A DNA stretch of 64,000 bases from Pseudoxanthomonas sp. J35. GTDB lineage: Bacteria > Pseudomonadota > Gammaproteobacteria > Xanthomonadales > Xanthomonadaceae. The translations under genes and the position numbers were made by a program. The DNA lies in the NCBI RefSeq assembly GCF_000513995.1, contig NZ_KI911335.1, forward strand, positions 1-64,000, given 5' to 3'. The notes below the pieces were generated by a model that was not told the DNA's origin, did not search any database, and worked only from the letters and a program-made list of their open reading frames with translations. Below are positions 15,158-41,531 of the stretch, in pieces; position 1 is the first letter of the stretch; each line of letters begins with the position of its first letter.

Positions 15158-15177
15158 TGGCCAGCGGTGTCATTCTA
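15158..15177 (-). promoter_or_regulatory. kdgK promoter with operator-like site
   Basis: On the plus strand TGGCCAGCGGTGTCA spans 15158-15172. On the minus strand a TAGAAT -10 hexamer (15177-15172) runs straight into it, so a bound repressor would cover the transcription start of kdgK. The site is the same motif as at the other pectin-locus promoters. Confidence 0.65.
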
Positions 15178-15222
15178 ACGTGGCCGGAACCGGCCCGACG
15201 GGCGGTGCGCGGACCGCTCGTG

Positions 15223-15285
15223 TTGCGCTGCAAGATGAACGTCACCATTCGGCGATGTTAGCGTCTTGTTTGACCAGCGGTGTCA
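15223..15285 (+). promoter_or_regulatory. Promoter and operator of the first pectin-locus TonB receptor
   Basis: There are three parts. TTGCGCTGCAAGATG lies at 15223-15237. An extended -10, TGTTAGCGT (pattern TGnTAnnnT), lies at 15256-15264. The operator-like TGACCAGCGGTGTCA lies at 15271-15285, beginning at the expected start point. The first element lies exactly 36 bases before the -10 hexamer, as in two other promoters here, which suggests a bound activator near -35 in place of a consensus hexamer. Confidence 0.6.
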
Positions 15286-15342
15286 TCCGCTGGCTGCGCA
15301 TTTCCGAAAACAATCTTGCGAGTTCTTCCTCTGGGAGGGGAT

Positions 15343-18105
15343 ATGAATACCCGGAACACCCGCCGTAAGACACCGGTTACCTTGCTGGCCGCGTCGATCG
15401 GCCTCGCGCTGTACATGCCGTCCGCGATGGCGCAGGACGCCGCCGCCGAGACGCAGGGCACCGCTACCGACCTGGACACCATCGTCGTCACCGGCTACCG
15501 GGCCAGCCTCGAGCGCGCCCAGGACATCAAGCGCGGCGAGATCGGCATGGTCGACGCGGTCGTCGCCCAGGACATCGGCAAGTTCCCCGACCTGAACCTG
15601 GCCGAGTCGCTGCAGCGCATCCCGGGCGTGGTCATCACCCGCGACGGCGGCGAAGGCCGCCAGATCACCGTCCGCGGCCTGGGCCCGGACTTCACCCGCG
15701 TGCGCCTCAACGGCCTGGAAGCGCTGAGCACGGTCGGCAGCACCGACGGCGCCGGCGGCACCAACCGCAGCCGCGGCTTCGACTTCAACGTGTTCGCCTC
15801 CGACCTGTTCTCGCAGCTGGTCGTGCGCAAGACCGCCTCGGCCGACGTGGACGAAGGCTCGCTGGGCGCCACCGTCGACCTGCGCACCGCGCGCCCGTTC
15901 GACTACGACGGCTTCACCGCGGTGACCAACATCCAGGGCAGCTGGAACGACGCCGCCCGCGCCGCCACCCCGCGCATCGCCGCGCTGATCGCCGACACCT
16001 GGGCCGACGGCAAGGTCGGCGGCCTGCTCTCGGTCGCCTACTCCGAGCGCGAGACGGTCGATGAGGGCAGCGGCACCGTCCGCTGGGCCAACGGTCCGGC
16101 CAACGGCAACTTCAGCGCCGCCTCGCCGTTCCAGGAAGCCCGTTCGGCCGACGTGTTCGCGCCGCGCTTCCCGCGCTACACGCTGATGGAGCACGACCAG
16201 AAGCGCCTGGGCGTCACCGCCTCGCTGCAGTTCCGCCCGACCGACAGCACCGAGATCAACTTCGACGCGCTGTACTCGAAGATCGACGCCGAGCGCGACG
16301 AGAAGTACATCGAGGCCAACGGCCTGAGCAAGTCGTCGGCCGACGGCAAGCGCCAGATCCTGGTCAACCGCGGCGAGATCCGCAACGGCGCGCTGGTCTA
16401 CGCCGAGATGGACAACGTCGACATCCGTGCCGAGAACCGCCACGACGAGTGGACCACCGAGTTCACCCAGTTCAGCCTGGACGGCAAGCACGAGTTCAAC
16501 GACAGCTTCTTCATGACCGCGAAGGTCGGCACCTCGAAGTCGGACCACAAGAACCCGGTCCAGGCCACGGTGATGATGGACAAGCTGGACGTCCAGGGTT
16601 ACAGCTACGACTACCGTGGCAACATGAACAAGCCGGTCTTCAACTACGGCGTCGACCCGACCGACCCGAACGGCTGGACCCTGTCCACGATCCGCCTGCG
16701 CCAGAACTACGTGACCAACGAGTTCGACACCGGCCAGGTCGACTTCACCTGGCTGGCCACCCCGTCGTTCACCCTGCAGGGCGGCATCCAGGCCAAGGAC
16801 TACACCTTCGACTCGATCGAGCGCCGCCGCACCGCGACCGAAACCATCGTCCCGAACTTCGCCGACGGCACCCGCATCGTCCCGGCCGACATGACCGAGA
16901 TCGGCAAGCTGACCGGCGTCAAGGGCCACCCGGGCAAGTGGGTGGTGCCGGACTTCGACAAGATCGTGAACCTGTTCGGCGCGCTGGGCGGCGAGGGCAC
17001 CTTCGCCCTGTCCAACTACGCCCCGAGCGACCGCAGCGTCGAGGAGAAGGACCGCGGCGGCTACCTGATGGGCAAGTTCTCGACCGACCTCGGCGCGATC
17101 CCGCTGTCGGGCAACTTCGGCGTCCGTTACGTCAAGACCAAGCAGACCTCCACCGGCATCGCCACCGCCAGCGGCCAGCCGGTCCCGGTCACCGTGTCGC
17201 GCGAGTACAGCGACACCCTGCCGTCGCTGAACCTGGTCGCCGAAGTCACCCCCGACTTCCTGGTCCGCTTCGGCGCCGCCAAGGTCATGTCGCGTCCGGG
17301 CCTGGGCAGCCTGACCCCGGGCGTCACGGTCAGCGTCAGCGGCAGCGCGCGCACCGTCAGCGGCGGCAACCCGATGCTGGATCCGACCCGCGCCAAGACC
17401 TACGACCTGGGCTTCGAGTGGTACTTCGACGAAGGCGCGATGCTGGGCCTGGCGGCGTTCTACAAGGACATCGACAGCTTCATCCAGAACACCCGCGAGT
17501 CGCGCGTGTACGCCCAGAGCGGCCTGCCGGCCAACCTGCTCGACGGCACCACCGCCACGGTCAACGACGAGTTCGTGTTCACCGTGCCGATCAACACCCC
17601 GGGCGGCAGCCTGCGTGGCCTGGAGTTCAACTACACCCAGCCGTTCACCTTCCTGCCGGGCTTCTGGCAGAACTTCGGCGTGCAGCTGAACTACACCTAC
17701 GTCGATTCGGAGATCCAGTACCTGCTGTCCAGCGGCGCCGCGGCGCAGAAGGCGGCGATGACCGGCCAGTCGAAGAATTCGTGGAACGCCACCGTGTTCT
17801 ACGAAGGCGAGCGCTTCTCCGGCCGCATCTCGGCGACCAACCGCAACGACTACCTGATCCAGGTCCCGGGCACCGAAACCGGCTTCAACAGCGCCGCCAA
17901 CGGCGTGCACGGCCAGAGCGGCAGCACGGTCCTCGACGCATCGATCCGCTACAAGCTGAGCGAGAAGGCCGAGATCAGCCTGGAAGGCAGCAACCTGACC
18001 AACGAAGCCCAGGAATCGTGGGTGGCCAACCCGTACGTGTCGCTGCCGCTGGAGTACAGCGAGACCGGCCGTACCTTCCTGCTGGGCCTGCGCTACAAGT
18101 TCTGA
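15343..18105 (+). CDS. TonB-dependent receptor for pectin-derived oligosaccharides (Xanthomonas/Caulobacter class)
   Basis: The 920-residue outer-membrane transporter has a signal peptide (KTPVTLLAASIGLALYMPSAMAQ), a TonB box region DLDTIVVTGYRASL, a plug (NLAESLQRIPGVVITRDGGE; VRGLGPDFTRVRLNGLEAL) and a long barrel ending LLGLRYKF. The plug sequence and size match the TonB-Xanth-Caul subfamily, usually devoted to plant carbohydrate. The ATG at 15343 follows GGGAGGGG. Divergent kdgK and the operator upstream tie it to pectin uptake; a receptor and the TonB/ExbBD operon at 54-57 kb would work together. Codons 9-14 contain a variant operator (15368-15382). A strong terminator follows the stop, so it is a single-gene unit. 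Confidence 0.93.
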   Translation: MNTRNTRRKTPVTLLAASIGLALYMPSAMAQDAAAETQGTATDLDTIVVTGYRASLERAQDIKRGEIGMVDAVVAQDIGKFPDLNLAESLQRIPGVVITRDGGEGRQITVRGLGPDFTRVRLNGLEALSTVGSTDGAGGTNRSRGFDFNVFASDLFSQLVVRKTASADVDEGSLGATVDLRTARPFDYDGFTAVTNIQGSWNDAARAATPRIAALIADTWADGKVGGLLSVAYSERETVDEGSGTVRWANGPANGNFSAASPFQEARSADVFAPRFPRYTLMEHDQKRLGVTASLQFRPTDSTEINFDALYSKIDAERDEKYIEANGLSKSSADGKRQILVNRGEIRNGALVYAEMDNVDIRAENRHDEWTTEFTQFSLDGKHEFNDSFFMTAKVGTSKSDHKNPVQATVMMDKLDVQGYSYDYRGNMNKPVFNYGVDPTDPNGWTLSTIRLRQNYVTNEFDTGQVDFTWLATPSFTLQGGIQAKDYTFDSIERRRTATETIVPNFADGTRIVPADMTEIGKLTGVKGHPGKWVVPDFDKIVNLFGALGGEGTFALSNYAPSDRSVEEKDRGGYLMGKFSTDLGAIPLSGNFGVRYVKTKQTSTGIATASGQPVPVTVSREYSDTLPSLNLVAEVTPDFLVRFGAAKVMSRPGLGSLTPGVTVSVSGSARTVSGGNPMLDPTRAKTYDLGFEWYFDEGAMLGLAAFYKDIDSFIQNTRESRVYAQSGLPANLLDGTTATVNDEFVFTVPINTPGGSLRGLEFNYTQPFTFLPGFWQNFGVQLNYTYVDSEIQYLLSSGAAAQKAAMTGQSKNSWNATVFYEGERFSGRISATNRNDYLIQVPGTETGFNSAANGVHGQSGSTVLDASIRYKLSEKAEISLEGSNLTNEAQESWVANPYVSLPLEYSETGRTFLLGLRYKF
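15368..15382 (+). promoter_or_regulatory. Operator-like site inside the receptor coding sequence
   Basis: AGACACCGGTTACCT (complement AGGTAACCGGTGTCT) differs at 2 of 15 positions from the kduI operator TGGTAACCGGTGTCA. It encodes the KTPVTL segment of the signal peptide, and the centre lies 97 bases downstream of the centre of the promoter operator. The same bases recur in the second receptor gene. A second operator for repressor looping or roadblock is inferred. Confidence 0.45.
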
Positions 18106-18127
18106 GGTCCACCGGCTGCTGCGTTGG

Positions 18128-18158
18128 AAAGGCCGGGGCGGCGACGCCCCGGCCTTTT
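18128..18158 (+). terminator. Rho-independent terminator after the first receptor
   Basis: Arms AAAGGCCGGGGC (18128-18139) and GCCCCGGCCTTT (18146-18157) form a 12-13 bp stem with a GCGA loop, 22 bases after the stop codon and ending in TTTT followed by CC. This is a typical intrinsic terminator. Confidence 0.85.
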
Positions 18159-18180
18159 CCTTTGCGGCGCCCGGCGGGTG

Positions 18181-18243
18181 TTGCGATGCAAGATGCCAAG
18201 CGCCTGCGGGTGCTGCTAGTTTCGCCTTTGACCATCGGTGTCA
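18181..18243 (+). promoter_or_regulatory. Promoter and operator of the second receptor operon
   Basis: TTGCGATGCAAGATG lies at 18181-18195, an extended -10 TGCTAGTTT at 18214-18222, and the operator-like TGACCATCGGTGTCA at 18229-18243. Spacings equal those of the first receptor promoter (36 bases from the upstream element to the -10 hexamer; operator starting at about +1). This promoter probably drives receptor, pectin methylesterase, pectate lyase and LamG protein. Confidence 0.62.
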
Positions 18244-18323: not shown

Positions 18324-21300
18324 ATGCCGAAGTACGACCGCACCGGAAAGACACCGGTTACCTTGCTGGCCGCGGCCATCGCCGCCGCCCTGTCCCTGCC
18401 CGCCGCGGCCCAGGAGGCCGGCGCAGCGCAGGACGTCACCGAGCTGGACCGGGTGACCGTCACCGGCTACCGGCAGAGCCTGCAGAAGTCGCTGGACGAG
18501 AAGCGCTACTCGACCGAGCAGGTCGACGCGATCTTCGCCGAGGACATCGGCAAGTTCCCCGACCAGAACCTGGCCGAATCGATGCAGCGTATCGCCGGCG
18601 TCTCGATCGACCGCGAGGGCGGCGAAGGCCAGCGCATTTCCATCCGCGGCCTGGGCTCGGACTTCACCCGCGTGCGCCTGAACGGCCTGGAGGCGCTGGC
18701 CACCGCCGGCACCGGCACCGCCGGCGTCAACCGCAGCCGCGGCTTCGACTTCAACACCTTCGCCTCCGAGCTGTTCAGCCAGGTCAAGGTCAACAAGACC
18801 CAGTCGGCGCAGATGGACGAAGGCTCGCTCGGCTCGACCGTGGACCTGCGCGGCTCGCGCCCGTTCGACTTCGACGGATTCCGCGCCTCCGCCAGCGCCC
18901 AGGCGGGCTACGGCGAACTGGCCGGGGAGATCGACCCGCGCGTGTCGGGGCTGGTCTCCAACACCTGGGCCGACGGCCGCTTCGGCGCCCTGCTGTCGGC
19001 CTCCTACAGCAAGCGCAACGTGTACGAGGAAGGCTACAACCCGGTGCGCTGGGAGCACGGCAACCACCGCAACTCCAACCAGTCCAACGCCAACAACAAC
19101 GGCACCTACGGCTTCTGTTCGCCGGTCGGCTACGTCCCACAGACCCCGCGCAACCCGCTGTCCAACGAGACCCCGGCCGGCACCGGCTCGCAGGCCAACC
19201 AGGACCGCAACAACGGCTGGGGCAGCTTCGGCATCGACGCCAACAACTGCGGCACCGGCCTGCCGCGCCCGGCCAACACGCCGGAGAACGTCGCCGCCTA
19301 CGAGACCGCGACCAACGCCTGGCACCCGCGCTATCCGCGCTACATCCGCACCGCCAGCGAGATCGAGCGCATCGGCGTGACCGGCGCGCTGCAGTGGCGC
19401 GCCTCCGACGACACCCTGCTCAGCTTCGACGCGATGTACTCGGAGCTGTCCAAGGACCAGCGCGAGGACTCGCTGGGCGCGAACCTGCACCGCGCGGCGA
19501 ACCTGGGCGGCAAGACCCAGATCGTGGTCCGCGAGGCCGAGGTCGACGCCATGAACCGGCTGGTCTACGGCGTGTTCGACAACGTCGACTTCCGCACCGA
19601 GTCGACCAACATCCAGGAGTCGACAAAGTTCCAGCAGTACAGCCTGAGCCTGGAGCACCGTTTCAACGACGACGTGCGCCTGGACGCGCAGCTGGGCCAC
19701 TCCAGCTCCAACTACGAGCGCCCGGTGTTCTCGCTGGTCAGCTTCGACAACCAGAACCTGGACGGCTTCGTGCTGGACCTGCGCGGCGACCCCGACATGC
19801 CGCGCATGACCTTCCCGTTCGACCTCAACGACCCGTCGGCGTGGTCGTGGCTGGGCTACGGCGCCGTGCCGGTCAACAGCAACGGCACCGCGCGCGGCAG
19901 CAACATCAGCGAGGTCCGGCTCAACCCGCAGTACGTGGAGAACAGCTTCGACTCGGCCAAGGTCGACCTGCAGTTCGACATCAACCCGACCTTCACCCTC
20001 CGTGGCGGCCTTGCCTACAAGGACTACGACATGAGCACGGAGGAGTACCGCCACATCAGCTACGGGCGCCTGGCCCAGGCGCTGCCCGACGGGCTGAGCG
20101 TCGCCGACCTGAGCACCACGCTCACCGGGTTCGGCAAGAACCTCTCCGGCGCGCCGTCCAGCTGGCTGGTGCCGGACTTCGGCAGGATCGTCGACCTGCT
20201 CGACATCTACTGCAACTGCGACACTGGCGTGCAGGGCGGCGACTACCGCCTGGCCAGCGTCGGCCACTTCGGCGCCTCGAACAACAACTTCGAGGTCAAC
20301 GAGCGCAGCCTGGGCAGCTACCTGCAGCTGGACTTCAACACCGACCTGCTGGATCGTGCCCTGCGCGGCAACATCGGCGTGCGCGTGGTCGAGACCCAGA
20401 TCACCGCCAGCGGCTGGGCGCCCTGCACCGCCGCCAACGCCGCCAACAATTCGGCCAATTGCCAAGCCTTCTTCGGCGTGGCCAACGCCACCTCCGCGCC
20501 GGGCGACCGCTACCTGGTGCGCAGCGTGGTCGACCACCGCTACCGCGACGTGCTGCCGTCGCTGAACCTGGCCTGGGACCTGAGCGACGAGCTGGTGCTG
20601 CGCTTCGGCGCGGCCAAGACCATGGCCCGGCCCACGCTGGGCTACCTGTCGCCCAGCGTCAGCGGCGGACCGACGCAGTACTTCGACGACGGCCGCGTGT
20701 TCTCGATCAACCTCGGCAACCCCAAGCTCGATCCGTTCCGCTCGACCAACTACGACCTGAGCCTGGAGTGGTACTTCCAGGAGGGCGCACTGCTGTCGGC
20801 CGCGCTGTTCTACAAGGACATCGACAGCTACGTGCAGCGCACCCGCCTGCTGACCACCTGGCGCGACATGGGCTACTCGCTGGACCTGCTGCCGGCCGGG
20901 TTCACCGCCGACACGCTGTTCAACGTGCAGAGCTACTACAACACCCCGGGCGGCCCGCTGAAGGGCTACGAGCTGACCTACCAGCAGCCCTTCACCTTCC
21001 TGCCCGGCTTCTGGAGCAGGTTCGGCGTGCAGCTCAACTACACCCACGTCGAATCCAGCATCCAGTACATGTTCAGCACCGCGACCAACAACAACCGGAC
21101 CGTGGTGACCACGTACACCGAGAACGACCTGGTCAACCTGTCGCCGAACTCGTACAACGCCACCTTGTACTACGACGACGGCAAGTTCAGCGCGCGCGTG
21201 TCCACCAGCTACCGCGACGGCTACATCAGCGAGGTACTCAGCCGCGAGAACGTGTGGGACCTGGACGGCAACGAGCTGGCCACCGCCGACGTGACCGGAA

Positions 21301-21488
21301 AGCACGACGTGCGCAACGTGGACTTCAACATGTCCTACCGCCTCAACAAGAAGCTGACGATGACCTTAGAGGCGATCAACCTGCTCGACACCCCCGACCG
21401 GCGCTACGTCGACTCGGCGCTGCAGATGCCCGATCGCTACACCGTCAACGGACGCCAGTACTACCTCGGTGTCCGCTATCGCTTCTGA
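18324..21488 (+). CDS. Second TonB-dependent receptor of the pectin locus
   Basis: The 1054-residue receptor is of the same subfamily as the preceding one. It has a signal peptide KTPVTLLAAAIAAALSLPAAA, a TonB box region ELDRVTVTGYRQSL, a plug (NLAESMQRIAGVSIDREGGE; IRGLGSDFTRVRLNGLEAL), a long barrel with Asn-rich loops around residues 250-320, and the C-terminal strand YYLGVRYRF. It is larger than the first receptor by about 130 residues, mostly in loops, so a longer or branched oligosaccharide is plausible. The ATG follows GGGAGGGAT. It heads a tight operon with enzymes that would process the imported material. Its signal-peptide codons also contain an operator-like site (18349-18363). Confidence 0.93.
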   Translation: MPKYDRTGKTPVTLLAAAIAAALSLPAAAQEAGAAQDVTELDRVTVTGYRQSLQKSLDEKRYSTEQVDAIFAEDIGKFPDQNLAESMQRIAGVSIDREGGEGQRISIRGLGSDFTRVRLNGLEALATAGTGTAGVNRSRGFDFNTFASELFSQVKVNKTQSAQMDEGSLGSTVDLRGSRPFDFDGFRASASAQAGYGELAGEIDPRVSGLVSNTWADGRFGALLSASYSKRNVYEEGYNPVRWEHGNHRNSNQSNANNNGTYGFCSPVGYVPQTPRNPLSNETPAGTGSQANQDRNNGWGSFGIDANNCGTGLPRPANTPENVAAYETATNAWHPRYPRYIRTASEIERIGVTGALQWRASDDTLLSFDAMYSELSKDQREDSLGANLHRAANLGGKTQIVVREAEVDAMNRLVYGVFDNVDFRTESTNIQESTKFQQYSLSLEHRFNDDVRLDAQLGHSSSNYERPVFSLVSFDNQNLDGFVLDLRGDPDMPRMTFPFDLNDPSAWSWLGYGAVPVNSNGTARGSNISEVRLNPQYVENSFDSAKVDLQFDINPTFTLRGGLAYKDYDMSTEEYRHISYGRLAQALPDGLSVADLSTTLTGFGKNLSGAPSSWLVPDFGRIVDLLDIYCNCDTGVQGGDYRLASVGHFGASNNNFEVNERSLGSYLQLDFNTDLLDRALRGNIGVRVVETQITASGWAPCTAANAANNSANCQAFFGVANATSAPGDRYLVRSVVDHRYRDVLPSLNLAWDLSDELVLRFGAAKTMARPTLGYLSPSVSGGPTQYFDDGRVFSINLGNPKLDPFRSTNYDLSLEWYFQEGALLSAALFYKDIDSYVQRTRLLTTWRDMGYSLDLLPAGFTADTLFNVQSYYNTPGGPLKGYELTYQQPFTFLPGFWSRFGVQLNYTHVESSIQYMFSTATNNNRTVVTTYTENDLVNLSPNSYNATLYYDDGKFSARVSTSYRDGYISEVLSRENVWDLDGNELATADVTGKHDVRNVDFNMSYRLNKKLTMTLEAINLLDTPDRRYVDSALQMPDRYTVNGRQYYLGVRYRF
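18349..18363 (+). promoter_or_regulatory. Operator-like site inside the second receptor coding sequence
   Basis: AGACACCGGTTACCT is identical to the internal site of the first receptor gene. Identity between the two genes runs through 27 bases from 18348 and includes GTT and TTG codons, which are unusual in this GC-rich genome. The centre lies 120 bases downstream of the promoter operator centre. Confidence 0.45.
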
Positions 21489-22542
21489 CGTGTCGCTCCG
21501 GCCCCGCCCATTCCCCTTCCTCTCCCGTGGGCGGGACCGGGCGGCCCGACCGGACCTCCCGCCGTCGCCCCGGCGCCGGCGGAGACTGGCCGGGCTTCTT
21601 CTCCTGACGCTTTCCGCCACCTCGGCGGCGGCCGCGGTCAATGCCGCGCCGGCGGTCGCATTCGACGTGGCCGCCGACGGCAGCGCGCAGTTCACGTCGG
21701 TGCAGGCCGCGGTCAATGCCGCGGTCGCGGCCGGGGCACCAGCCACGGTCCGCATCCATGCCGGGACCTACCGCGAAACGGTCCGGATCCCGGCCGGAGC
21801 GCCGCCGATGGAGCTGGCCGGCGACGGGCCGGAACGCACCGTCATCGTGTTCGGCAACCACGCCGCGCTGCTCGACCCGGCCAGCGGCCGGCCGTTCGGC
21901 ACCTTCGGCTCGGCCACGGTGGCGGTGGACGCGGACGACTTCCGCGCCCGCGACCTGACTATCGCCAACGACGCCGGCCCGGTCGGGCAGGCCGTGGCGC
22001 TGCGGTTGAGCGGCACCCGCGCCGCGTTCCGCCACGTGCACCTGCGCGGCCACCAGGACACGCTCTACCTGCAGGGACGCGACAGCCTGGCCTGGTTCGG
22101 AGACTGCGCGGTGGAGGGTACGGTGGACTTTATCTTCGGCGCGGGCACCGCGCTGTTCGAGCGCTGCCGCATCCACTCCCTCGGCGACGGCTATGTCACC
22201 GCCGCCGCCACGCCCCATGGCCGGCGCTTCGGCCTGGTGTTCCGCGACTGCCGGCTGACCGCCGCGCCCGGCGTGCGTGCGGTGTACCTGGGCCGGCCAT
22301 GGCGCGATCATGCCCGGGTGGCCTTCCTGGACAGCGTCCTAGGCGCGCACGTGCTGCCGGCCGGCTGGCACGACTGGGACCGGCCGGAGCGGCGCGCCAC
22401 CGCGCATTTCGCCGAGGCCGGCAATACCGGTCCCGGCGCCGATGCCGGCGCGCGCGCGCCCTGGGCGCACCGGCTCGGTCCGCGGCAGGCCGCGGCCTAC
22501 TCGCGCCAAGCCATCCTCGGCGATTGGAGACCGTACGAATGA
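21469..22542 (+). CDS. Pectin methylesterase (CE8), secreted
   Basis: The enzyme removes methyl esters from homogalacturonan, exposing it to pectate lyase. The protein has up to 357 residues, with an Arg-rich N-terminus and signal segment (RRRRRLAGLLLLTLSATSAAAA). CE8 right-handed helix motifs follow: GTYRE, VALRLSG, HQDTLYLQG, FGDCAVEGTVDFIFGAG (both catalytic aspartates) and the arginine block YLGRPWRDHA. The start is uncertain: GTG at 21469 overlaps the receptor gene by 20 bases, and GTG at 21490 just avoids it; neither has a clear ribosome site. Its stop overlaps the pectate lyase start (ATGA). Confidence 0.93.
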   Translation: MSAIASDVSLRPRPFPFLSRGRDRAARPDLPPSPRRRRRLAGLLLLTLSATSAAAAVNAAPAVAFDVAADGSAQFTSVQAAVNAAVAAGAPATVRIHAGTYRETVRIPAGAPPMELAGDGPERTVIVFGNHAALLDPASGRPFGTFGSATVAVDADDFRARDLTIANDAGPVGQAVALRLSGTRAAFRHVHLRGHQDTLYLQGRDSLAWFGDCAVEGTVDFIFGAGTALFERCRIHSLGDGYVTAAATPHGRRFGLVFRDCRLTAAPGVRAVYLGRPWRDHARVAFLDSVLGAHVLPAGWHDWDRPERRATAHFAEAGNTGPGADAGARAPWAHRLGPRQAAAYSRQAILGDWRPYE

Positions 22543-28808: not shown

Positions 28809-28823
28809 TGGCCATCGGTGTCA
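28809..28823 (-). promoter_or_regulatory. Operator-like site upstream of the CE12 acetylesterase
   Basis: TGGCCATCGGTGTCA on the plus strand, 45 bases before the acetylesterase start, differs from the second receptor operator at one position (A to G). No clear -10 hexamer was recognised for the minus-strand gene, so promoter position is open. Confidence 0.55.
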
Positions 28824-28885: not shown

Positions 28886-28946
28886 CTGCGGCGCAAGATG
28901 GCCGCAACGGCGGCGGTCTGCTAGCTTGCCTTGACCATCGGTGTCA
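28886..28946 (+). promoter_or_regulatory. Promoter and operator of the GH43 operon
   Basis: CTGCGGCGCAAGATG lies at 28886-28900, an extended -10 TGCTAGCTT at 28919-28927, and the operator-like TGACCATCGGTGTCA at 28932-28946. The 36-base distance from the upstream element to the -10 hexamer is the same as at both receptor promoters; the operator lies 2 bases closer to the -10. Confidence 0.62.
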
Positions 28947-33535: not shown

Positions 33536-34552
33536 TTACTCCCGTGCAGGTTCGTTGTCTGTCGCAGCCGGCACCGCAGGCAGCGGCGCGTGCGCGCGGA
33601 TCCACTCCACCGCCAGCTTCGGCCACAGCGCCAGGGTGCCGTGCGCGCCGCGCACGCCGAAGCCGTGGCCGCCACTGGCGTAGAGATGGACTTCGTGTTC
33701 GATGCCGGCCTCGCGCAGCGCCGCTTCGAACAGCAGGCTGTTCTCCACCGGTACCACGTCGTCGTCCTGGGCGTGCAGCAGGAACACCGGTGGCGTGCGC
33801 GCGTCGACCCGGTTCTGCGCCGAGTACGCGCGCACGGCTTCCGCATCGGGCGCCTCGCCCAGCAGCTTCTGCCGCGAGCCCGGATGGGCATGCGCGCCCA
33901 TGTCGATGACCGGGTAGACCAGCACGGCGTAGGCCGGGCGCGCATCGACGGCATCGGCGCCATCGACCGGCGCGTAGACGCGTTCGCCATGGCGCGTGGC
34001 CAGGCTGGCGGCCAGGTGGCCACCGGCGGAAAAGCCCATCACCCCGACGCTGTCCGGATCGATGCCCCATTCGCCGGCGCGGCTGCGGATCAGGCGCATC
34101 GCCCGCTGCGCGTCGGCCAGCGGCACGTCGCGTGCGTTGGCGTGGCCTTCGCCCGGCAGCCGGTAGTGCAGGACGAACAGGGTCAGCCCGGCCTGTTCGA
34201 CGAACGCCGGCAGCAGGGCCGTGCCTTCCTTGTCCAGGACCACGCGCTGGTAGCCGCCGCCCGGCACCACCAGCAGGGCGCGGCCGTCCGGCCGGGCCGG
34301 GCGGTACACGTCCAGCCAGGGGCGGGCGACGCCGTCGACGTAGCGGTCGGGCAGGGCAGGGTCGCTGCTGCGTTCGACGATCCGCTGCGGCAGGTCCAGG
34401 CCTTCGGATCCGGGCGGGGTGCCCGGCCACAGTGGTACCTGGCGGTCGGGAGCCGGGGGCGCCGCGCCGGCGCCGGCAGCGGCCGGCAGCAGCGACAGCG
34501 CGACCAGGGCGGCACCGAGGCGGCGGCGCAGGCGGCGGATTGGCACAGGCAT
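33536..34552 (-). CDS. Alpha/beta hydrolase, acetylxylan/feruloyl esterase-like
   Basis: The 338-residue protein has an Arg-rich signal peptide (PIRRLRRRLGAALVALSLL). The hydrolase fold shows VVPGGGYQRVVLDKEG (oxyanion region), the nucleophile elbow GVMGFSAGGHLAAS, the aspartate in LLHAQDDDVVPV and the histidine in YASGGHGFGVRG. It resembles bifunctional acetylxylan/feruloyl esterases found in plant-polysaccharide loci. The ATG at 34552 has GGAGG close upstream. It is divergent from the hydratase-TRAP operon; the shared 148-base spacer holds an operator-like site that may control both sides. The carboxylesterase gene follows almost without gap. Confidence 0.87.
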   Translation of the reverse strand: MPVPIRRLRRRLGAALVALSLLPAAAGAGAAPPAPDRQVPLWPGTPPGSEGLDLPQRIVERSSDPALPDRYVDGVARPWLDVYRPARPDGRALLVVPGGGYQRVVLDKEGTALLPAFVEQAGLTLFVLHYRLPGEGHANARDVPLADAQRAMRLIRSRAGEWGIDPDSVGVMGFSAGGHLAASLATRHGERVYAPVDGADAVDARPAYAVLVYPVIDMGAHAHPGSRQKLLGEAPDAEAVRAYSAQNRVDARTPPVFLLHAQDDDVVPVENSLLFEAALREAGIEHEVHLYASGGHGFGVRGAHGTLALWPKLAVEWIRAHAPLPAVPAATDNEPARE

Positions 34553-34567: not shown

Positions 34568-34631
34568 TTGCGTTGCAGCGTGCAGTAAGGCCTTGGCGCG
34601 GTGCACATTGCTACATGACACCGGTTTACCA
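34568..34631. promoter_or_regulatory. Divergent regulatory region with operator, esterase and hydratase-TRAP units
   Basis: TGACACCGGTTTACCA (34616-34631) is the pectin-locus motif in inverted orientation with one extra base. TTGCGTTGCA at 34568-34577 matches the upstream element of three other promoters. A TGCTACAT sequence (34609-34616) could be the -10 region for the plus-strand operon, overlapping the operator. Confidence 0.55.
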
Positions 34632-34700: not shown

Positions 34701-35540
34701 TTGAGTACTGCTACTGGCCACCAGGACGCCACGCCGCCGCTGCCCGAACTGGCGGGCATCGCCGACCGCTTCGTCGCCGCCCGGCGCGCGGGCGCCGCAC
34801 TGGAAGCCTTTCCCGGCCAGATCCCGGCCGACCTGGTGACCGCCTACCAGGTCCAGGACCTGGCCATCGCCCGGTGGCCGGACCGGGTGGTCGGCTGGAA
34901 GGTCGGCTTCATCGCTCCCGAGCGCCGCGACGTGTCCGGCGACGAGCGCCTGCTGGGCCCGATCTTCGCCCGCCAGCTCTGGAATGCCACCGGTGACAGT
35001 ACCGCGATCCCGGTGTTCGTGGGCGGCTTCGGCGCGGTCGAGGCCGAGTACGTGCTGCGCCTGGATGCCGACGCGCCGGCCGACAAGCTCGAGTGGACCC
35101 CGGAGGAGGCCGCGGCGGTGCCCAGTACCCTGTTCGCCGGCGTCGAGGTGGCCAGCAGCCCGCTGGCCACGATCAACGAGCTGGGTCCGCGCGTGGTGGT
35201 GTCCGACTTCGGCAACAACAACGGCCTGGTCCTCGGTCCGCAGATCCCGGACTGGGCCGCGCTGGACGAAGCCACGCTGCTGGCCGAAACCTTCATCGAC
35301 GGCGCCAGCGTCGGCACCGGCGGCGCAGGCCGCCTGCCCGGCGGCCTGCGCGCCGCGTTCGCCTTCGCCCTGGCGCGTTCGGCGCGCCGCGGCCGCCCGC
35401 TGAAGGCCGGCGAGTACATCGCCACCGGCAACGCCACCGGCATCCACGACATCGTCGCCGGCCAGGTCGCGCGCGTGGTGTTCGACGGCTACGCCACCCT
35501 GGACTGCCACGCCGTCCCGGCGGGGAATGCCGACGCATGA
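34701..35540 (+). CDS. 2-keto-4-pentenoate hydratase/FAH-superfamily protein
   Basis: The 279-residue protein is of the MhpD/FAH fold: WKVGFIAPERR, the metal-binding acidic FGAVEAEYVLRL and VEVASSPL blocks, SDFGNNNGLVLG and the conserved C-terminal TGNATGIHDIVAGQ. Relatives hydrate 2-keto enoic acids. The start is TTG at 34701 after GGGGAGAC, with no ATG in frame nearby. It heads an operon with a TRAP transporter (stop overlaps dctP start, ATGA) and sits behind a pectin-type operator. It may therefore act on a keto-deoxy or unsaturated uronate intermediate; this step is not part of the textbook KduI-KduD-KdgK route. Confidence 0.8.
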   Translation: MSTATGHQDATPPLPELAGIADRFVAARRAGAALEAFPGQIPADLVTAYQVQDLAIARWPDRVVGWKVGFIAPERRDVSGDERLLGPIFARQLWNATGDSTAIPVFVGGFGAVEAEYVLRLDADAPADKLEWTPEEAAAVPSTLFAGVEVASSPLATINELGPRVVVSDFGNNNGLVLGPQIPDWAALDEATLLAETFIDGASVGTGGAGRLPGGLRAAFAFALARSARRGRPLKAGEYIATGNATGIHDIVAGQVARVVFDGYATLDCHAVPAGNADA

Positions 35541-36556
35541 GCGGGCTGACCCGTCGACGCCTGCTGCTGGGTGGCGCCGGCGCGGCCTGCGCGCTGCCGC
35601 TGGCGATGGGCGGAAGCGCCTTCGCCGCCGGTGGGGCCAATCCCGCCGCGCGCCACCTGCTGACCGCCACCGACGTCCACGTCTCCGACTACCCGACCGT
35701 GGAAGCGGTGCGCTGGATCGGGCAGACGCTGGAACGCGAGACCGGCGGCCGGCTGTCGATCCGCCTCTACCACTCCGGCCAGCTCGGCCGCGAGTCCGAG
35801 GCCATCGACATGGCCCGCTACGGGGTGATCGACATCACCCGCGTGTTCGCAGGCGCGCTCAACAACGCCTTCCCGCTGACCCAGGCGCTGTGCCTGCCGT
35901 ACGTGTTCGATTCGGTCGAGCACATGCGCCGGGTCATCGACGGCGAGGTGGGCGAAGCGGTGCTGCGCGGCTTCGAGAGCCGCGACCTGGTCGGCCTGGC
36001 GATCTACGACTCCGGCGCCCGCTGCTTCTACAACACGAAGCATCCGATCGTGGAGCCGAAGGACCTGCACGGCATGAAGATGCGCGTGGCGGCCTCGGAC
36101 ATCTTCATCCGCCTGGTGCGCCTGCTCGGCGCCAACCCGACGCCGATGTCGCTGGGCGAGACCTTCTCGGCGATGGAAACGCGCATGATCGACGGCGCCG
36201 AGAACAACATGCGCAGCTTCCACTCCAGCCGCCACTTCGAGGCGGCGCGGTACTGGTCGGAGACGCGCCATTCCTACGCGCCGGACGTGCTGCTGATGTC
36301 GCGCGCCAGCTTCGAGGCGCTGGCCCCGTCCGACCGCAACCTGCTGGTGCGCGTGGCCCGCGAGTCGGTGCCGGTGATGCGCGAGAAGTGGGACGCCTCC
36401 GAGGGTGCCGCGCGCAAGGCCGTGCTCGCCCATGGCATCCAGGCCAACGAGTCCGACCTCGAAGCCTTCCGCGCCGCCGCCCGGCCGCTGCTGGACGAAT
36501 ACCAGCGCAAGCCGGGCATCGACGACCTCTACCGTCGCATCCGCGACCTGGCCTGA
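35537..36556 (+). CDS. dctP: TRAP transporter substrate-binding protein (DctP type)
   Basis: The 339-residue periplasmic solute receptor has a twin-arginine-like leader (LTRRRLLLGGAGAACALPLA), and a DctP fold with GGRLSIRLYHSGQLG and the carboxylate-binding region FYNTKHPIVEPKDLHGMKMRV then GAENNMRSFHSSRHFE. The conserved arginine in KMRV normally pairs with the substrate carboxylate, which fits a uronate or sugar acid. It works with the DctQ and DctM genes immediately downstream to import the ligand using an ion gradient. It overlaps the hydratase gene by four bases. Confidence 0.92.
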   Translation: MSGLTRRRLLLGGAGAACALPLAMGGSAFAAGGANPAARHLLTATDVHVSDYPTVEAVRWIGQTLERETGGRLSIRLYHSGQLGRESEAIDMARYGVIDITRVFAGALNNAFPLTQALCLPYVFDSVEHMRRVIDGEVGEAVLRGFESRDLVGLAIYDSGARCFYNTKHPIVEPKDLHGMKMRVAASDIFIRLVRLLGANPTPMSLGETFSAMETRMIDGAENNMRSFHSSRHFEAARYWSETRHSYAPDVLLMSRASFEALAPSDRNLLVRVARESVPVMREKWDASEGAARKAVLAHGIQANESDLEAFRAAARPLLDEYQRKPGIDDLYRRIRDLA

Positions 36557-36566
36557 TCCGGATCCA

Positions 36567-37115
36567 ATGACCGAGACCGCTTCCCCCGTCCCGGCCAGCC
36601 CCGTGCAGCGCGCGCTGGACCGGCTCGCCGGCATCGTCATCGCCATCGCCGCCACCGCCCTGGTCGGGCTGGTGGTGGTGCAGGGCTGGCAGGTGTTCAC
36701 CCGCTACGTGCTCAACGATTCGCCCAGCTGGACCGAACCGGTGACCCTGCTGCTGCTGGCCATCGCCATGGGCATGGGCGCCGCCGCCGGCGTGCACACC
36801 AACCGCCACTTCGGCTTCTTCCTGCTGCACGACCACGTGCGCCCGGCCGTGCGCCGCGCCATCGACGTGGTCGTGCCGCTGGTGATCGCCGGCATCGGTG
36901 CGGTGGTGGCGTACTGGGCCGGCGTGCTGCTGCTGGACGGCCTGGACATCCGCGCCGCCGGCGCCAACCTGCCGCAGAGCATCAACTACCTGCCGCTGTC
37001 GCTGGGCGGCGCGCTGATGGTGGTGTTCGCGCTCAACCGGCTGTTCCTCGCGTTCGCTCCGGCAGCGGAGGCCACCCCGGCCGCGCAGCCGGCGCCGCAG
37101 GACGGAGACCTCTGA
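36567..37115 (+). CDS. dctQ: TRAP transporter small membrane subunit
   Basis: The 182-residue inner-membrane protein has four hydrophobic helices and the typical DctQ stretch VFTRYVLNDSPSWTEPVTLLLL followed by a Gly/Ala-rich second helix and NRHFGFFLL. It forms the membrane part with DctM, whose gene starts one base after this stop. The C-terminus is a short Ala/Pro tail. It lies 10 bases after dctP; order and spacing are typical of a TRAP operon. Confidence 0.92.
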   Translation: MTETASPVPASPVQRALDRLAGIVIAIAATALVGLVVVQGWQVFTRYVLNDSPSWTEPVTLLLLAIAMGMGAAAGVHTNRHFGFFLLHDHVRPAVRRAIDVVVPLVIAGIGAVVAYWAGVLLLDGLDIRAAGANLPQSINYLPLSLGGALMVVFALNRLFLAFAPAAEATPAAQPAPQDGDL

Positions 37116-37116
37116 C

Positions 37117-38397
37117 ATGGCCATCGCCCTGCTCTTCCTCGTATTCGCCATCCTGCTCGTCATCGGCGTGCCGGTGGCGTTCGCCCTGGCCGCCGCCTCG
37201 CTGGTGACCCTGCTGTACCTGGACCTGCCGTCGGTGGTGCTGGTCCAGCAGATTTCGGCCGGCTCCGGCTCGGCCTCGCTGATCGCGATCCCGCTGTTCA
37301 TCTTCGCCGGCGAGATCATGATGCGCGGCGGCATTTCCGAGCGCCTGATCGCGCTGGCCTCGTCGCTGGTCGGCCGCCTGCGCGGCGGCCTGGGCCAGGT
37401 CTCGGTGCTGTCCTCGCTGTTCTTCGGCGGCGTGTCCGGCTCGGCGATCGCCGACGTCTCGGCGGTCGGCGGCACGATGATCCCGCAGATGGTCAAGCGC
37501 GGCTACGACCGCGACTTCGCCGTCAACGTCAGCATCACCGCCGCGCTGGTGGCGCTGCTGGTGCCGCCCTCGCACAACCTGATCCTGTTCTCGGCCGCGG
37601 CCGGCGGCGGCCTGTCGATCGCGCGGCTGTTCGCCGCGGGCATCGTCCCGGCGCTGCTGATGACCGTGGCTCTGATGTTCACCGGCTACGTGGTGGCACG
37701 CCGCCGCGGCTACGGCACCGAGCCGTTCCCGGGCATGCGCGCGGTGATGGTGCGCCTGGTCTCCGCGCTGCCGGGCCTGGGTCTGGTCGCGCTGATCTTC
37801 GTCGGCATCCGCGCCGGCATCTTCACCGCGGTCGAGTCGGCGGCCATCGCCGTGGTCTACGCGCTGCTGGTGACGGTGGTGCTGTACCGGCAGCTGCGCC
37901 TGCGCGAGTTCCTCGACACGGTGGTGCACGCGGCGCGCAGCACCGGCGTGATCCTGTTCGTGATCGCCACCGCGGCGGTGTTCGGCTGGCTGCTGGCCTA
38001 CCTGCAGGTGCCGGCGGCGGCGGTGGAGTTCCTGCAGTCGTTCGCGCACAGCAAGTACATGGTGCTGCTGATGATCGTGGTCATGCTGCTGCTGCTGGGC
38101 ACCTTCATGGACCTGGCGCCGATGATCCTGATCTGCACCCCGATCTTCCTGCCGGTGGCCAGGGCCTACGGCATCGACCCGGTCCACTTCGGCCTGGTGC
38201 TGGTCCTGACCGGCGGCCTGGGCCTGGTCACCCCTCCGGTGGGCTCGGTGCTGTTCATCGGCACGGCCATCGGCAAGATCAGCGTCGGCGAGAGCATGCG
38301 CACGATCTGGCCGTTCTGGCTGGCCGGCCTGGCCGTGCTGCTGGTGGTGGCGTTCTTCCCGCAGCTGTCGCTGTGGCTGCCCGGGATCCTGGCCTGA
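37117..38397 (+). CDS. dctM: TRAP transporter large permease subunit
   Basis: The 426-residue permease has about 12 helices. Family segments are visible: LLVIGVPVAFALAAASLVTL, IPLFIFAGEIMMRGGI, FFGGVSGSAIADVSAVGG, VPPSHNLILFSAAAGG and TGGLGLVTPPVGSVLF. With DctP and DctQ it would bring pectin-derived uronates (unsaturated mono- or digalacturonate, or a keto-deoxy acid) into the cytoplasm, where KduI and KduD act. It ends the hydratase-TRAP operon; a new promoter for the LacI gene follows. Confidence 0.94.
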   Translation: MAIALLFLVFAILLVIGVPVAFALAAASLVTLLYLDLPSVVLVQQISAGSGSASLIAIPLFIFAGEIMMRGGISERLIALASSLVGRLRGGLGQVSVLSSLFFGGVSGSAIADVSAVGGTMIPQMVKRGYDRDFAVNVSITAALVALLVPPSHNLILFSAAAGGGLSIARLFAAGIVPALLMTVALMFTGYVVARRRGYGTEPFPGMRAVMVRLVSALPGLGLVALIFVGIRAGIFTAVESAAIAVVYALLVTVVLYRQLRLREFLDTVVHAARSTGVILFVIATAAVFGWLLAYLQVPAAAVEFLQSFAHSKYMVLLMIVVMLLLLGTFMDLAPMILICTPIFLPVARAYGIDPVHFGLVLVLTGGLGLVTPPVGSVLFIGTAIGKISVGESMRTIWPFWLAGLAVLLVVAFFPQLSLWLPGILA

Positions 38398-38443: not shown

Positions 38444-38480
38444 GGGCTAGAATCGACCCAACCCTCCACCGAAAGCTTCC
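38444..38480 (+). promoter_or_regulatory. Promoter of the LacI-type regulator gene
   Basis: A GGCTAGAAT block contains a TAGAAT -10 hexamer (about 38449-38454), leaving a leader of about 20 bases before the ATG at 38481. No copy of the pectin operator motif was found here, so the regulator gene does not seem to be controlled by the same site. Confidence 0.45.
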
Positions 38481-39536
38481 ATGCCCGCGCGTCCTTCCCA
38501 AGCCCCGCAGACCCCCCGGGCCGCCACCGGCAAGGCGGCGACCATCAACGACATCGCGCGGCTGGCGGGCGTTTCCAAGAAGACGATCTCGCGGATCATC
38601 AACAACTCGCCGCTGGTGCGGAAGGACACCCGGGAGAAGGTCGAGGCGCTGATGCGCGAGGTCGGCTACGTGCCCGACCCGCTGGCGCGCGGCCTGGCCT
38701 TCCGCCGTTCGTTCCTGATCGGCATGGTCTACGACAACCCCACCGCGCAGTACATCGTCGACATGCAGTACGGCGCGCTGGACGCGCTGCGCGAATCGGG
38801 CTTCGAGCTGGTGGTGCATCCCTGCGACACGCGCAGCCCCGGCTACATCGACGGCGTGCGCCGCTTCGTCCAGCAGCAGAAACTGCACGGGGTGATGCTG
38901 GTGCCGCGCGCCTCGGAAGACCAGAACCTGGCCGACATGCTGGCCGAGATGGGCTGCCGCTACACGCGCATCGTGCCGGTCGGCTTCGAGGACACCGACG
39001 GCCGCATGATCGTGACCCACGACCGCGACGGCGCGGCCGAGGCGGCCGACTACCTGCTGACCCTGGGCCACCGCGACATCGCCCTGATCACCGGTCCGCA
39101 GGCCTACCGTTCGGCGGTGGAGCGCACCGGCGGCTTCGTCGAGACCCTGGCCCGGCGCGGAATCGAGGTGCCAAAGGAACGCATCATCGAGGCCAGCTAC
39201 ACCTTCGAGTCCGGCGTGGCCGCGGCGGAGAAGCTGCTGGCCGGCAAGCAGCGGCCGACCGCGATCTTCTGCGGCAACGACGAGATGGCCGCCGGCGTCT
39301 ACAAGGTGGCCATGCGCGCCGGGATCAGCATCCCCCGCGACCTGTCGGTGATCGGCTACGACGACAGCCCGCTGGCCTCGCGCCTGTGGCCGTCGCTGAC
39401 CTCGGTCCGCCGCCAGACCCGCGACACCGGCCGGATCGCGGCGAGCATGCTGATCCGCACCGACAACGCGCCGCTGCCGGTGGCCAGCGTGCGCCCGCAC
39501 CTGATCGTCCGCGACTCCTGCCAGCCCCCTGCCTGA
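38481..39536 (+). CDS. LacI-family transcriptional regulator of the pectin locus (KdgR-like role)
   Basis: The 351-residue protein has an N-terminal LacI headpiece (TINDIARLAGVSKKTISRII; hinge helix region DPLARGLAFRRS) and a periplasmic-binding-protein type effector domain (GMVYDNPTAQYIVDMQYGAL; GYDDSPLASRLWPSLTSVRR). It lies between the TRAP operon and kduI. LacI regulators bind near-palindromic sites centred on CG, and the motif TGACACCGGTnnCA family at surrounding promoters fits. The likely effector is KDG or a related uronate intermediate. Its role as the repressor of the whole locus is inferred from position and motif only. Confidence 0.9.
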   Translation: MPARPSQAPQTPRAATGKAATINDIARLAGVSKKTISRIINNSPLVRKDTREKVEALMREVGYVPDPLARGLAFRRSFLIGMVYDNPTAQYIVDMQYGALDALRESGFELVVHPCDTRSPGYIDGVRRFVQQQKLHGVMLVPRASEDQNLADMLAEMGCRYTRIVPVGFEDTDGRMIVTHDRDGAAEAADYLLTLGHRDIALITGPQAYRSAVERTGGFVETLARRGIEVPKERIIEASYTFESGVAAAEKLLAGKQRPTAIFCGNDEMAAGVYKVAMRAGISIPRDLSVIGYDDSPLASRLWPSLTSVRRQTRDTGRIAASMLIRTDNAPLPVASVRPHLIVRDSCQPPA

Positions 39537-39586
39537 GCCCCGCGGAGGCGGCCTCCAGCCGCACCGCCGTTTGCCGCATTGCGGTA

Positions 39587-39615
39587 TGACACCGGTTACC
39601 ATCGTCCGCTAGAAT
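39587..39615 (+). promoter_or_regulatory. kduI promoter with operator-like site
   Basis: TGACACCGGTTACCA spans 39587-39601 and a TAGAAT -10 hexamer spans 39610-39615. With a 17-base spacer the TGACAC end of the operator serves as the -35 hexamer, so a bound repressor would compete directly with RNA polymerase. The leader to the kduI ATG is about 65 bases. Confidence 0.65.
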
Positions 39616-39685
39616 GCCGCTTCAATGCACCACCCTGGCCGGGAATCCCAAGCCCCGGCCTTGCGTACCGAGGAGCCCCGAGCCG

Positions 39686-40534
39686 ATGTACCAGAAGACC
39701 TATTACGCGACCCACCCCGGCGTGATGCAGGGCGCCAGCAACGACGAGCTGCGCGACCTGTACCTGATCGGCGACCTGTTCGCCGCCGACGAGGTGCGCC
39801 TGAACTACACCCACTACGAGCGCTTCGTGATCGGCGGCGCCGCCCCGGTCGACAAGGTCGTGTCGCTGCCGAAGCAGACCGAGCCGGCCTCGGCCGCCGG
39901 CAAGCCGTTCCTGGAGCGTCGCGAGCTGGGCGTGATCAACGTCGGTGCCGGCACCGGCACGGTGACCGTCGACGGCACCGAGTACGTGCTCGGTCCGAAG
40001 GACGGCCTGTACGTGGCGATGGGCAGCGAGGAGGTCAGCTTCGCCTCGGCCGACGCCGCCAACCCGGCCAGGTTCTACCTGACCTCGACCCCGGCGCACG
40101 CCCGCTTCGAGACCAAGCAGCTGTCGATCAAGGACGCCGTCGCCCTGGACCGCGGCGCGCTGGAGACCAGCAACGAGCGCACGATCTACCAGTTCATCGT
40201 GCCGGCCACCTGCAAGTCCTCGCAGCTGCTGCTGGGCCTGACCGTGCTCAAGCCGGGCAGCGTGTGGAACACCATGCCGCCGCACCTGCACGACCGCCGC
40301 AGCGAGGTCTACTTCTACTTCGACCTGGGCGAGAACGACCGCGTCTACCACTTCATGGGCCAGCCGGACCAGCAGCGCCACATCGTCATGCAGAACGACG
40401 AGGCCGTGGTTTCGCCGCCGTGGTCGATCCACATGGGTTCGGGCACGTCCAACTACGCCTTCATCTGGGCGATGGGCGGCGAGAACCTGGACTACACCGA
40501 CATGAACGTGCTGGACATCTGCCAGCTGAAATGA
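39686..40534 (+). CDS. kduI: 5-dehydro-4-deoxy-D-glucuronate isomerase
   Basis: The enzyme converts 5-keto-4-deoxyuronate, formed from unsaturated galacturonate, to 2,5-diketo-3-deoxygluconate. The 282-residue product is a double cupin protein of the normal length. Visible features are the start [20 protein letters not shown], the zinc-site block [20 protein letters not shown] and the final [20 protein letters not shown]. Its ATG follows AGGAGCCCCGAGCCG. It is preceded by an operator-bearing promoter and followed by kduD, the next enzyme in the pathway. Confidence 0.97.
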
Positions 40535-40568
40535 CCTGACGCGCCGCCCCGCGGCGCGCCTCCCTGTA

Positions 40569-40586
40569 AGCGGGGCTTGCCCCGCT
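40569..40586 (+). terminator. Short hairpin between kduI and kduD
   Basis: Arms AGCGGGGC / GCCCCGCT with a TT spacer give an 8-bp stem 34 bases after kduI. No U tract follows (CCTCCCC), so it more likely stabilises or attenuates the kduI-kduD message than terminates it fully. Confidence 0.4.
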
Positions 40587-40674
40587 CCTCCCCTCCGGAA
40601 CGCCGGCCGAACCCGGCCTTCCCCGCAATGCGCCCGGCGGGCCACCCCCGCCCCACGTACAACGAGGACCGCTC

Positions 40675-41433
40675 ATGGCAAACAACCCGTTCAGTCTGGA
40701 AGGCAAGGTCGCCCTGGTCACCGGCGCCAACACCGGCCTAGGCCAGGGCATCGCCCTGGCGCTGGCCGAAGCCGGCGCCGACATCGCCGCCGCCGGCATC
40801 GTCGAAGCCACCGAGACCGGCGAGAAGGTGCGCGCCCTGGGCCGCCGCTTCCTCAACCTGGAAGCCAACCTGATCTCGATCGAGCCGGTCCAGCGCCTGG
40901 TCAAGGAAACCGTCGCCGGCCTCGGCGGACTGGACATCCTGGTCAACAACGCCGGCCTGATCCGGCGCGCCGACGCGGTCGACTTCAGCGAGAAGGACTG
41001 GGACGACGTCATGAACGTCAACCTCAAGTCCGCCTTCTTCATGTCGCAGGCCGCCGGCCGCCACTTCATCGCCCAGGGCAGCGGCAAGATCATCAACATC
41101 GCCTCGATGCTGTCGTTCCAGGGCGGCATCCGTGTGCCGTCGTACACCGCCTCCAAGAGCGGCATCGCCGGCATCACCCGCCTGCTGGCCAACGAATGGG
41201 CGAGCAAGGGCATCAACATCAACGCCATCGCCCCCGGCTACATGGCCACCGACAACACCGCCCAGCTGCGCGCCGACGAGCAGCGCAGCGCCGAGATCCT
41301 CGGCCGCATCCCGGCCGGGCGCTGGGGCACGCCGGCCGACCTGGGCGGCGCCGCGGTGTTCCTGGCCAGTCGCGCCTCCGACTACGTCAACGGCGCGATC
41401 ATCCCGGTCGACGGCGGCTGGCTGGCGCGCTGA
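40675..41433 (+). CDS. kduD: 2-dehydro-3-deoxy-D-gluconate 5-dehydrogenase
   Basis: This short-chain dehydrogenase reduces 2,5-diketo-3-deoxygluconate to KDG with NAD(P)H. The 252-residue product shows the nucleotide motif TGANTGLGQG, NNAG, the catalytic Ser in IASMLSFQGG and the Tyr-Lys pair in YTASKSG. The start MANNPFSLEGKVALVTG is typical of KduD. It acts between KduI and KdgK. It lies 140 bases after kduI and shares its promoter or has its own; an intrinsic terminator follows the stop. Confidence 0.96.
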   Translation: MANNPFSLEGKVALVTGANTGLGQGIALALAEAGADIAAAGIVEATETGEKVRALGRRFLNLEANLISIEPVQRLVKETVAGLGGLDILVNNAGLIRRADAVDFSEKDWDDVMNVNLKSAFFMSQAAGRHFIAQGSGKIINIASMLSFQGGIRVPSYTASKSGIAGITRLLANEWASKGININAIAPGYMATDNTAQLRADEQRSAEILGRIPAGRWGTPADLGGAAVFLASRASDYVNGAIIPVDGGWLAR

Positions 41434-41516
41434 CCCCCACGTCGGGATGTTCCCGGCGCCGCGGGCAGGCGGCGCTACGCCAACGAGCGCCCTCTCTCCA
41501 CGCCCGCGACCCGGAA

Positions 41517-41531
41517 AGATACCGGCAACCT
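41517..41531 (+). promoter_or_regulatory. Degenerate operator-like site upstream of the CE12-cupin gene
   Basis: AGATACCGGCAACCT resembles the internal receptor sites (AGACACCGGTTACCT), with differences at three positions. It lies 50 bases before the CE12-cupin start and just before a terminator hairpin. A promoter hexamer was not recognised. Confidence 0.35.

Follow-up and report, generated by a model that had tools for sequence, protein, structure and literature searches.

The pectin locus in the 64-kb window (the whole stretch of 64,000 nucleotides analysed here) is best explained by a LacI-family repressor acting through operators at transcription start points, with a further operator inside the receptor genes (O2), and an upstream one (O3), reinforcing repression, preferably by DNA looping; we put the probability of this reading at roughly two in three. 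In the proposed mechanism, repressor dimers would, without inducer, occupy operators lying on or close to the start point, in the promoter spacer or over the -35 region, and so block initiation. The receptor genes would carry O2 as an added site about 30 bp into the coding sequence and often O3 100–180 bp upstream of the promoter operator (O1). The two or three bound dimers would cooperate, through a DNA loop as we prefer or through a roadblock at O2, until a uronate breakdown product, possibly KDG or a relative, frees the repressor.

Gene ends were taken from a purpose-written codon-usage caller, and some family scans were run on longer frames of the same genes. On the minus strand, the locus contains a kdgK-like PfkB sugar kinase (14077–15093; Pfam PfkB, 6e-31 on a slightly longer frame), whose matches to KDG kinase-like NCBIfam models all fall under the cut-off. 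The plus strand encodes TonB-dependent receptor 1 (15343–18105; TIGR01782, 772 bits), TonB-dependent receptor 2 (18324–21488; TIGR01782, 717 bits), a pectin methylesterase of uncertain start (21469–22542; Pfam Pectinesterase, 2e-58), a PL10-type pectate lyase (22539–23645; Pfam Pec_lyase, 5e-104 on a longer frame) and a large LamG-domain protein (23642–27463; Pfam Laminin_G_3). In its Pfam and NCBIfam gene content this resembles a pectin CUT locus, with TonB receptors adjoining pectinase genes. A GDSL esterase (27871–28725, minus strand; family scan), a GH43 glycosidase (28993–30594, plus; Pfam, 2e-94 on a longer frame of the same gene) and a BNR/sialidase-like protein (30651–31835, plus; family scan) come next, together with two minus-strand genes, a carboxylesterase (31872–33533; family scan) and an esterase resembling the pectin acetylesterase PaeX under the curated cut-off (33536–34552). 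The remaining genes, all on the plus strand, are a hydratase-like gene (weak match) with DctP, DctQ and DctM of a TRAP transporter (34701–38397), the LacI-family regulator (38481–39536), a kduI-type isomerase (39686–40534; Pfam KduI) and a short-chain dehydrogenase (40675–41433; family scan) named kduD-type from its context. Elsewhere in the window, a Ku-like (end-joining) gene is located close to the pectin genes at 9196–10131, and a predicted tRNA-Arg (cct) at 58097–58187 overlaps a called minus-strand frame (58091–58867).

The window holds six exact copies of the motif TGRYMANCGGTGTCA; 100 dinucleotide-shuffled sequences gave none. On the plus strand these lie at 15158–15172 (kdgK), 15271–15285 (receptor 1 O1, covering the presumed start point), 18229–18243 (O1 of receptor 2), 28809–28823 (GDSL esterase) and 28932–28946 (O1 of GH43), and on the minus strand at 39587–39601, over the kduI -35 region. 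The first-pass annotation had described one motif at seven or more pectin-gene promoters, with a seventh site at 34616. That site (34616–34631, minus strand), between the divergent esterase and hydratase-TRAP genes, misfits TGRYMANCGGTGTCA even when two mismatches are allowed and stands only as a longer-armed variant: in inverted form it reads GGTAAACCGGTGTCA, with a weak arm longer by one A. All seven sites fall between called genes. The promoter assignment needed correcting at 15158 and 28809, which precede the divergent minus-strand genes for kdgK and the GDSL esterase; a TTAGAAT -10-like box was seen by eye immediately upstream of the former on the kdgK strand, and the pair formed by the latter and the GH43 operator recurs in a near relative (G136). 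The 15158 site also serves as O3 of receptor 1, with an O3–O1 centre distance of 113 bp. The list was moreover incomplete, as a search allowing two mismatches placed two further operators, the O2 sites (AGACACCGGTTACCT on the plus strand), within the signal-peptide codons of both receptors at 15368–15382 (codons 9–14 of receptor 1) and 18349–18363 (both on the minus strand as oriented operators).

The view that one motif marks a compact pectin regulon is supported by its distribution, with the sites preceding pectin-locus genes and seven of the 11 copies of the core ANCGGTGTCA in the 3,243,912-base (3.24 Mb) genome being the seven places named above. The remaining four copies were rejected as regulon members: three fall within genes that look YceI-, pfp- and bfd-like by eye, and the fourth, ahead of a gene with GlnE domains, shows no obvious connection to sugar use. 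At that last position (C24:212531, L012:4032) a ACCGGTGTCA core is preceded by TTTCATGTAAT. A near match, AGTTACCGGTTACCA, was also observed at C5:40441, where no long reading frame spans the stretch. A matrix built from nine sites (which fit by construction) scored its own sites at 18.0–23.6 bits, and the next match in the window at 14.3.

The repressor is very probably the LacI-family protein at 38481–39536. It combines an N-terminal LacI HTH (Pfam LacI, 5e-19) with a periplasmic-binding-protein-like effector domain (Peripla_BP_3, 3e-39), which places it in the LacI/GalR family. Around its orthologues (the best 80 of 187 relatives), the TRAP-type operator TGACACCGGTTTACC occurs upstream of the gene in 74/80 loci, the other six having less than 2.3 kb of upstream DNA; on this basis we regard 34616 as a genuine operator variant. 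The kduI-side operator TGACACCGGT lies within 1 kb past the end of the gene in 75/80 of these loci. Among the other five, one has TGACACCGGT at 1.07 kb (L044), three have little or no DNA there (L034, L074, L095), and in L072 it is truly absent downstream of the gene. Across 149 genomes of the family (orthologue threshold E <= 1e-110), the receptor-promoter operator TGACYAKCGGTGTCAT was found in 47 and a LacI orthologue in 59; all 47 fall among these 59 and none among the 90 without the gene (Fisher 7e-28, which ignores phylogeny and, the genomes being related, overstates their independence). The 12 genomes with LacI and without an exact O1 comprise nine in which the protein is 64–69% identical and three in which it is 78–84% identical; several genomes with a 64–67% identical protein do carry O1. 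The O2 15-mer (pattern AGACACCGGTTWCCT) occurs in 34/149 genomes, 33 of them with LacI; the other, G068, has the T variant of O2 only and no orthologue. The operators beside the orthologues and the nesting of O1 within LacI presence thus bear out the proposal that this gene is the likely regulator.

The regulator gene had been described as lacking a site of its own. It lies on the DctM strand, beginning 83 bp beyond that gene, and this gap holds no operator; as it follows the hydratase-TRAP genes in the same direction, it is probably part of the TRAP operon and autoregulated through the putative operator at 34616. The protein stops at residue 351, and its alignment with LacI covers only residues 2–308 of the latter, so that, by length, the C-terminal tetramerisation tail of the lac repressor type appears to be missing. 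One g15 genome also carries a second LacI paralogue of 54% identity, some 2.5 kb away from the orthologue (G090:C18:214669-215700).

Without such a tail, looping would need a GalR-like dimer–dimer contact. Operator spacings are suggestive of looping, lying near whole helical turns. O1 and O2 are 96 bp apart at receptor 1 and 119 bp at receptor 2. With distances differing by no more than 2 bp within a genus collapsed, our own receptor 2 added by hand and two leaders (see below) excluded, O1–O2 gave 30 clusters between 86 and 159 bp (for a 10.5-bp period, R was 0.385 with a null p of 0.023, and the mean cosine had p 0.00025) and O3–O1 gave 13 clusters (R 0.64, p 0.007), the distances being phylogenetically correlated. 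Mean helical phases are -0.3 to -0.7 bp. The O3–O1 period scan peaks at 10.5–11, and the O1–O2 scan is broad, with R of 0.36–0.38 also at 12.5–14.5; helical phasing was therefore rejected as proof of looping and kept as a suggestive feature.

A possible but doubtful alternative is that O2 works as a roadblock, halting RNA polymerase during elongation, and not as a loop end. It lies downstream of O1 within the gene, the regulator lacks the LacI-type tail by length, and spacings of 100.5, 102, 113, 118 and 119 bp depart from a whole turn by roughly a quarter turn or more, our own receptor 2 (119 bp, 11.3 turns) among those off phase. For E. coli gal, the accessible parts of PMC4693257 describe GalR as a roadblock at the internal operator OI. 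However, the clustered spacings favour whole turns on two separate intervals, and an upstream O3 fits looping or local concentration instead.

Repression by one LacI-family protein also has to accommodate two forms of the operator. LacI/GalR-family operators are near-palindromic and CG-centred (TGNNANCGNTNNCA). Each promoter operator of the locus contains the half-site TGACACCG, of which the O2 version is GACACCG. Some kduI operators are almost perfect palindromes (GGACACCGGTGTCA), and the weak half of O1 is degenerate, reading GACCATCG versus GGTAACCG in O2 and in the kduI and TRAP operators. Given this difference, two regulators sharing a half-site are conceivable, one on TGRCYAKCGGTGTCA (receptors, GH43, kdgK, GDSL) and LacI on GGTAAMCGGTGTCA (kduI, TRAP, O2), both classes being distinct and each conserved. 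We consider this improbable, as O1 is nested within LacI presence, O1 and O2 co-occur in most receptors read, and one GH43-like promoter (L102) bears both an O1-type and a ACCGGTGTCA-type site.

O2 is identical to the kduI operator except that both end bases are changed, and it encodes K-T-P-V-T-L in both receptors. The codons used include ACA, GTT and TTG, which in 18 long reading frames of the window account for 1.7%, 1.9% and 2.2%, respectively, of the synonymous codons. Genome-wide, exact matches to RGACACCGGTTACCW are confined to the two receptors, with the kduI copy one change off. Constraint on DNA and on protein was compared in a search seeded from the promoter operator TTTGACYAKCGGTGTCAT and not from O2. 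It matched 144/395 genomes; among the matches listed, 100 stretches picked for genus spread were taken, plus 60 loci from this search and from the one in 149 genomes. Of 139 proximal O1 sites read, 126 precede a TPVT-like start. The 13 others belong to genes with GH43-like N-termini, unassigned genes, one receptor-like start (G191) and two leaders (G113, G262). In 113 distinct N-terminal DNAs, ACA is kept in 110, CCG in 112, GTT in 110 and ACC in 108, while the conserved Leu after O2 uses five codons (CTG/CTT/CTC/TTG/CTA) and the conserved Ala four (GCC/GCG/GCA/GCT). The first eight residues and the codons beyond O2 have diverged and the O2 13-mer has not. At least three receptors (G363, G375, G191) have O1 without O2, and G092 has an altered O2. 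As a sequence feature, this corresponds to the gal type, with an operator in the first codons of a gene and under constraint at the DNA level.

Two congeners show the site where no receptor 2 was found at this place. In G113 and G262 (L321, L322) the LamG gene follows a receptor-2-type promoter, and tblastn (1e-20) with our own receptor 2, PME and PL10 found no match in the 12.5 kb and 10 kb stretches, respectively. O1 is intact in both, and the O2 13-mer GACACCGGTTACCT persists in the LamG leader at distances from O1 of 106 and 84 bp, where no receptor frame runs, although short upstream frames across it are possible. In G113 the loss of receptor 2 may be recent, with the old frame still partly legible. 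A receptor without its operators is found in a Xanthomonas genome (G384): receptor 1 retains O1 and O2, and the receptor-2 orthologue (76% identical) has neither CGGTGTCA nor GACACCGG near its start and no KTPVT. Likewise, the genome of the window encodes six further receptors of the class that score over the cut-off, and these have no GACACCGGT or CGGTGTCA from -1.5 kb to +0.1 kb of the family-match start.

Taken together, rare codons kept while their neighbours drift, the six other receptors without the site and its survival in the leaders make the O2 sites look like DNA elements rather than protein motifs. For the same reasons (codon choice, the other receptors and the two leaders), conservation of the signal peptide is unlikely as their cause. 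Since O2 overlaps the signal peptide, repressor binding would fix the codons ACA-CCG-GTT-ACC and hence seems to dictate the residues T-P-V-T. Several points count against the preferred repressor model with looping. O2 lies exactly eight codons past the start in 114/126 genes, a fixed position that looping alone does not require; the LacI genomes with no exact O1 and the receptors with an absent or altered O2 weigh against the model as well. The same fixed position speaks for a role of the conserved AAGACACCGGTTACC in the mRNA (in starting translation or as a target of a small RNA) or as a signal-peptide motif, with no operator function. This is very unlikely, considering its match to the kduI operator bar two end bases, its retention in leaders outside receptor frames (with the proviso on short upstream frames) and its absence from six receptors of the same class. 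That identical O2 sites merely reflect descent from recently copied receptor genes is hardly credible: the carriers are homologous receptors, but the flanking codons and first eight residues have diverged around an unchanged 13-mer.

Besides the operators, many of the promoters carry another shared element, a dyad ahead of the O1 promoters that is typically TTGCNNNGCANNATG; its end makes up the -35, and 16–18 bp and then TANNNT follow. In the window it is present as TTGCGCTGCAAGATG at 15223–15237, abutting the -35 of receptor 1 (-10-like TAGCGT by eye, 15259–15264), as TTGCGATGCAAGATG at 18181–18195 for receptor 2 (-10-like TAGTTT by eye, 18217–18222), at 28886–28900 for GH43 and at 39576–39588 for kduI, where it runs into the -35, all on the plus strand. 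This composite pattern fits five of the eight window promoters (receptor 1, receptor 2, GH43, kduI and PaeX-like). It was found in 106/129 distinct O1 promoters, 74/77 kduI promoters and 50/63 PaeX-side promoters, counts that are descriptive and no blind test because the pattern was built after viewing these promoters. Reversed sequences gave no matches, and rates in mononucleotide shuffles were at most 0.004. The strict pattern is absent from 69/69 TRAP promoters of relatives and from the window promoters of TRAP, kdgK and GDSL. By eye, TRAP promoters fit with a -10 of TATACA, and the window TRAP operon has GC-GGT-GC-ACA-TTG at 34598–34610 (plus strand). In the whole genome, TTGCRHYGCANVATG has five copies, two of them in the window, and the element pattern TTGCNNNGCANSATG has ten matches, two in the window and the other eight coding by eye except perhaps C9:39650. 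The simplest guess is that the GC-N3-GC-N3 dyad abutting the -35 is a putative activator site.

The arrangement resembles known repressor systems in part. The lac operon of E. coli has a start-point operator with upstream and intragenic auxiliary operators; LacI is tetrameric, and lac O2 lies about 400 bp into lacZ. The receptor genes share the layout of lac O1/O2/O3, and they differ in that O2 is only about 30 bp into the gene and the regulator has no tail by length. In E. coli gal, operators at -60.5 and +53.5 are 113 bp apart and the galE ATG is at +27, according to the accessible parts of PMC4693257. As far as that account goes, both systems use a LacI/GalR-family repressor and an internal operator early in the first gene (gal OI at about codon 9–10), and a 113-bp spacing occurs in both. 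Unlike gal as described there, the locus also has an operator over the presumed start point and, in many cases, one more upstream, its target is an outer-membrane receptor, and O2 seems to have held residues of the signal peptide constant in many genera.

Regulation of pectin or uronate use is shared with regulators of other kinds. KdgR of Enterobacteria, which regulates pectin and uronate use, belongs to the IclR family and hence to another protein family. KdgR, UxaR and UxuR of Bacteroides are LacI-family regulators of uronate use in another lineage, as described in accessible parts of a LacI regulon survey whose available text contains neither 'xanthomonad' nor 'pectin' (PMC4052901). Within the family, the LacI-type repressor XylR acts on xylan TonB-receptor (CUT) loci of Xanthomonas and thus shares LacI-type control of plant cell-wall sugar loci for a different sugar, with no internal operator found in the available portion of PMC13282271. 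The predicted regulon of NagR, also LacI-type, includes TonB-dependent receptors in two Xanthomonas species, the sugar being N-acetylglucosamine; here too, no internal operator was found in the portion available (PMC5343134). In X. campestris, the receptor XCC0120 lies upstream of pectin methylesterase and pectate lyase genes and is induced by polygalacturonate, as stated in the available sections of Blanvillain et al. 2007 (PMC1790865), and the accessible text of a 2012 X. campestris paper on TonB signalling and pectate lyase has LacI only in one strain genotype (PMC3551730). The literature covered gave no account of this operator set; an earlier regulon prediction is possible, as most subscription journals and RegPrecise lie outside that coverage.

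The most far-reaching version of these ideas is tentative, and we would not count on all of it together: a family-wide O3–O1–O2 switch on the receptor, with a signal-peptide operator fixing four residues across genera, plus an activator on GC-N3-GC abutting the -35 at most regulon promoters. For the biology of the family, which includes plant pathogens and Xanthomonas, the analysis offers a specific and testable candidate regulator and operator set for pectin use. It also provides a comparative case of an intragenic transcription-factor site that seems to restrict the sequence of a signal peptide, with two natural cases where the receptor is missing at the locus and the site remains.
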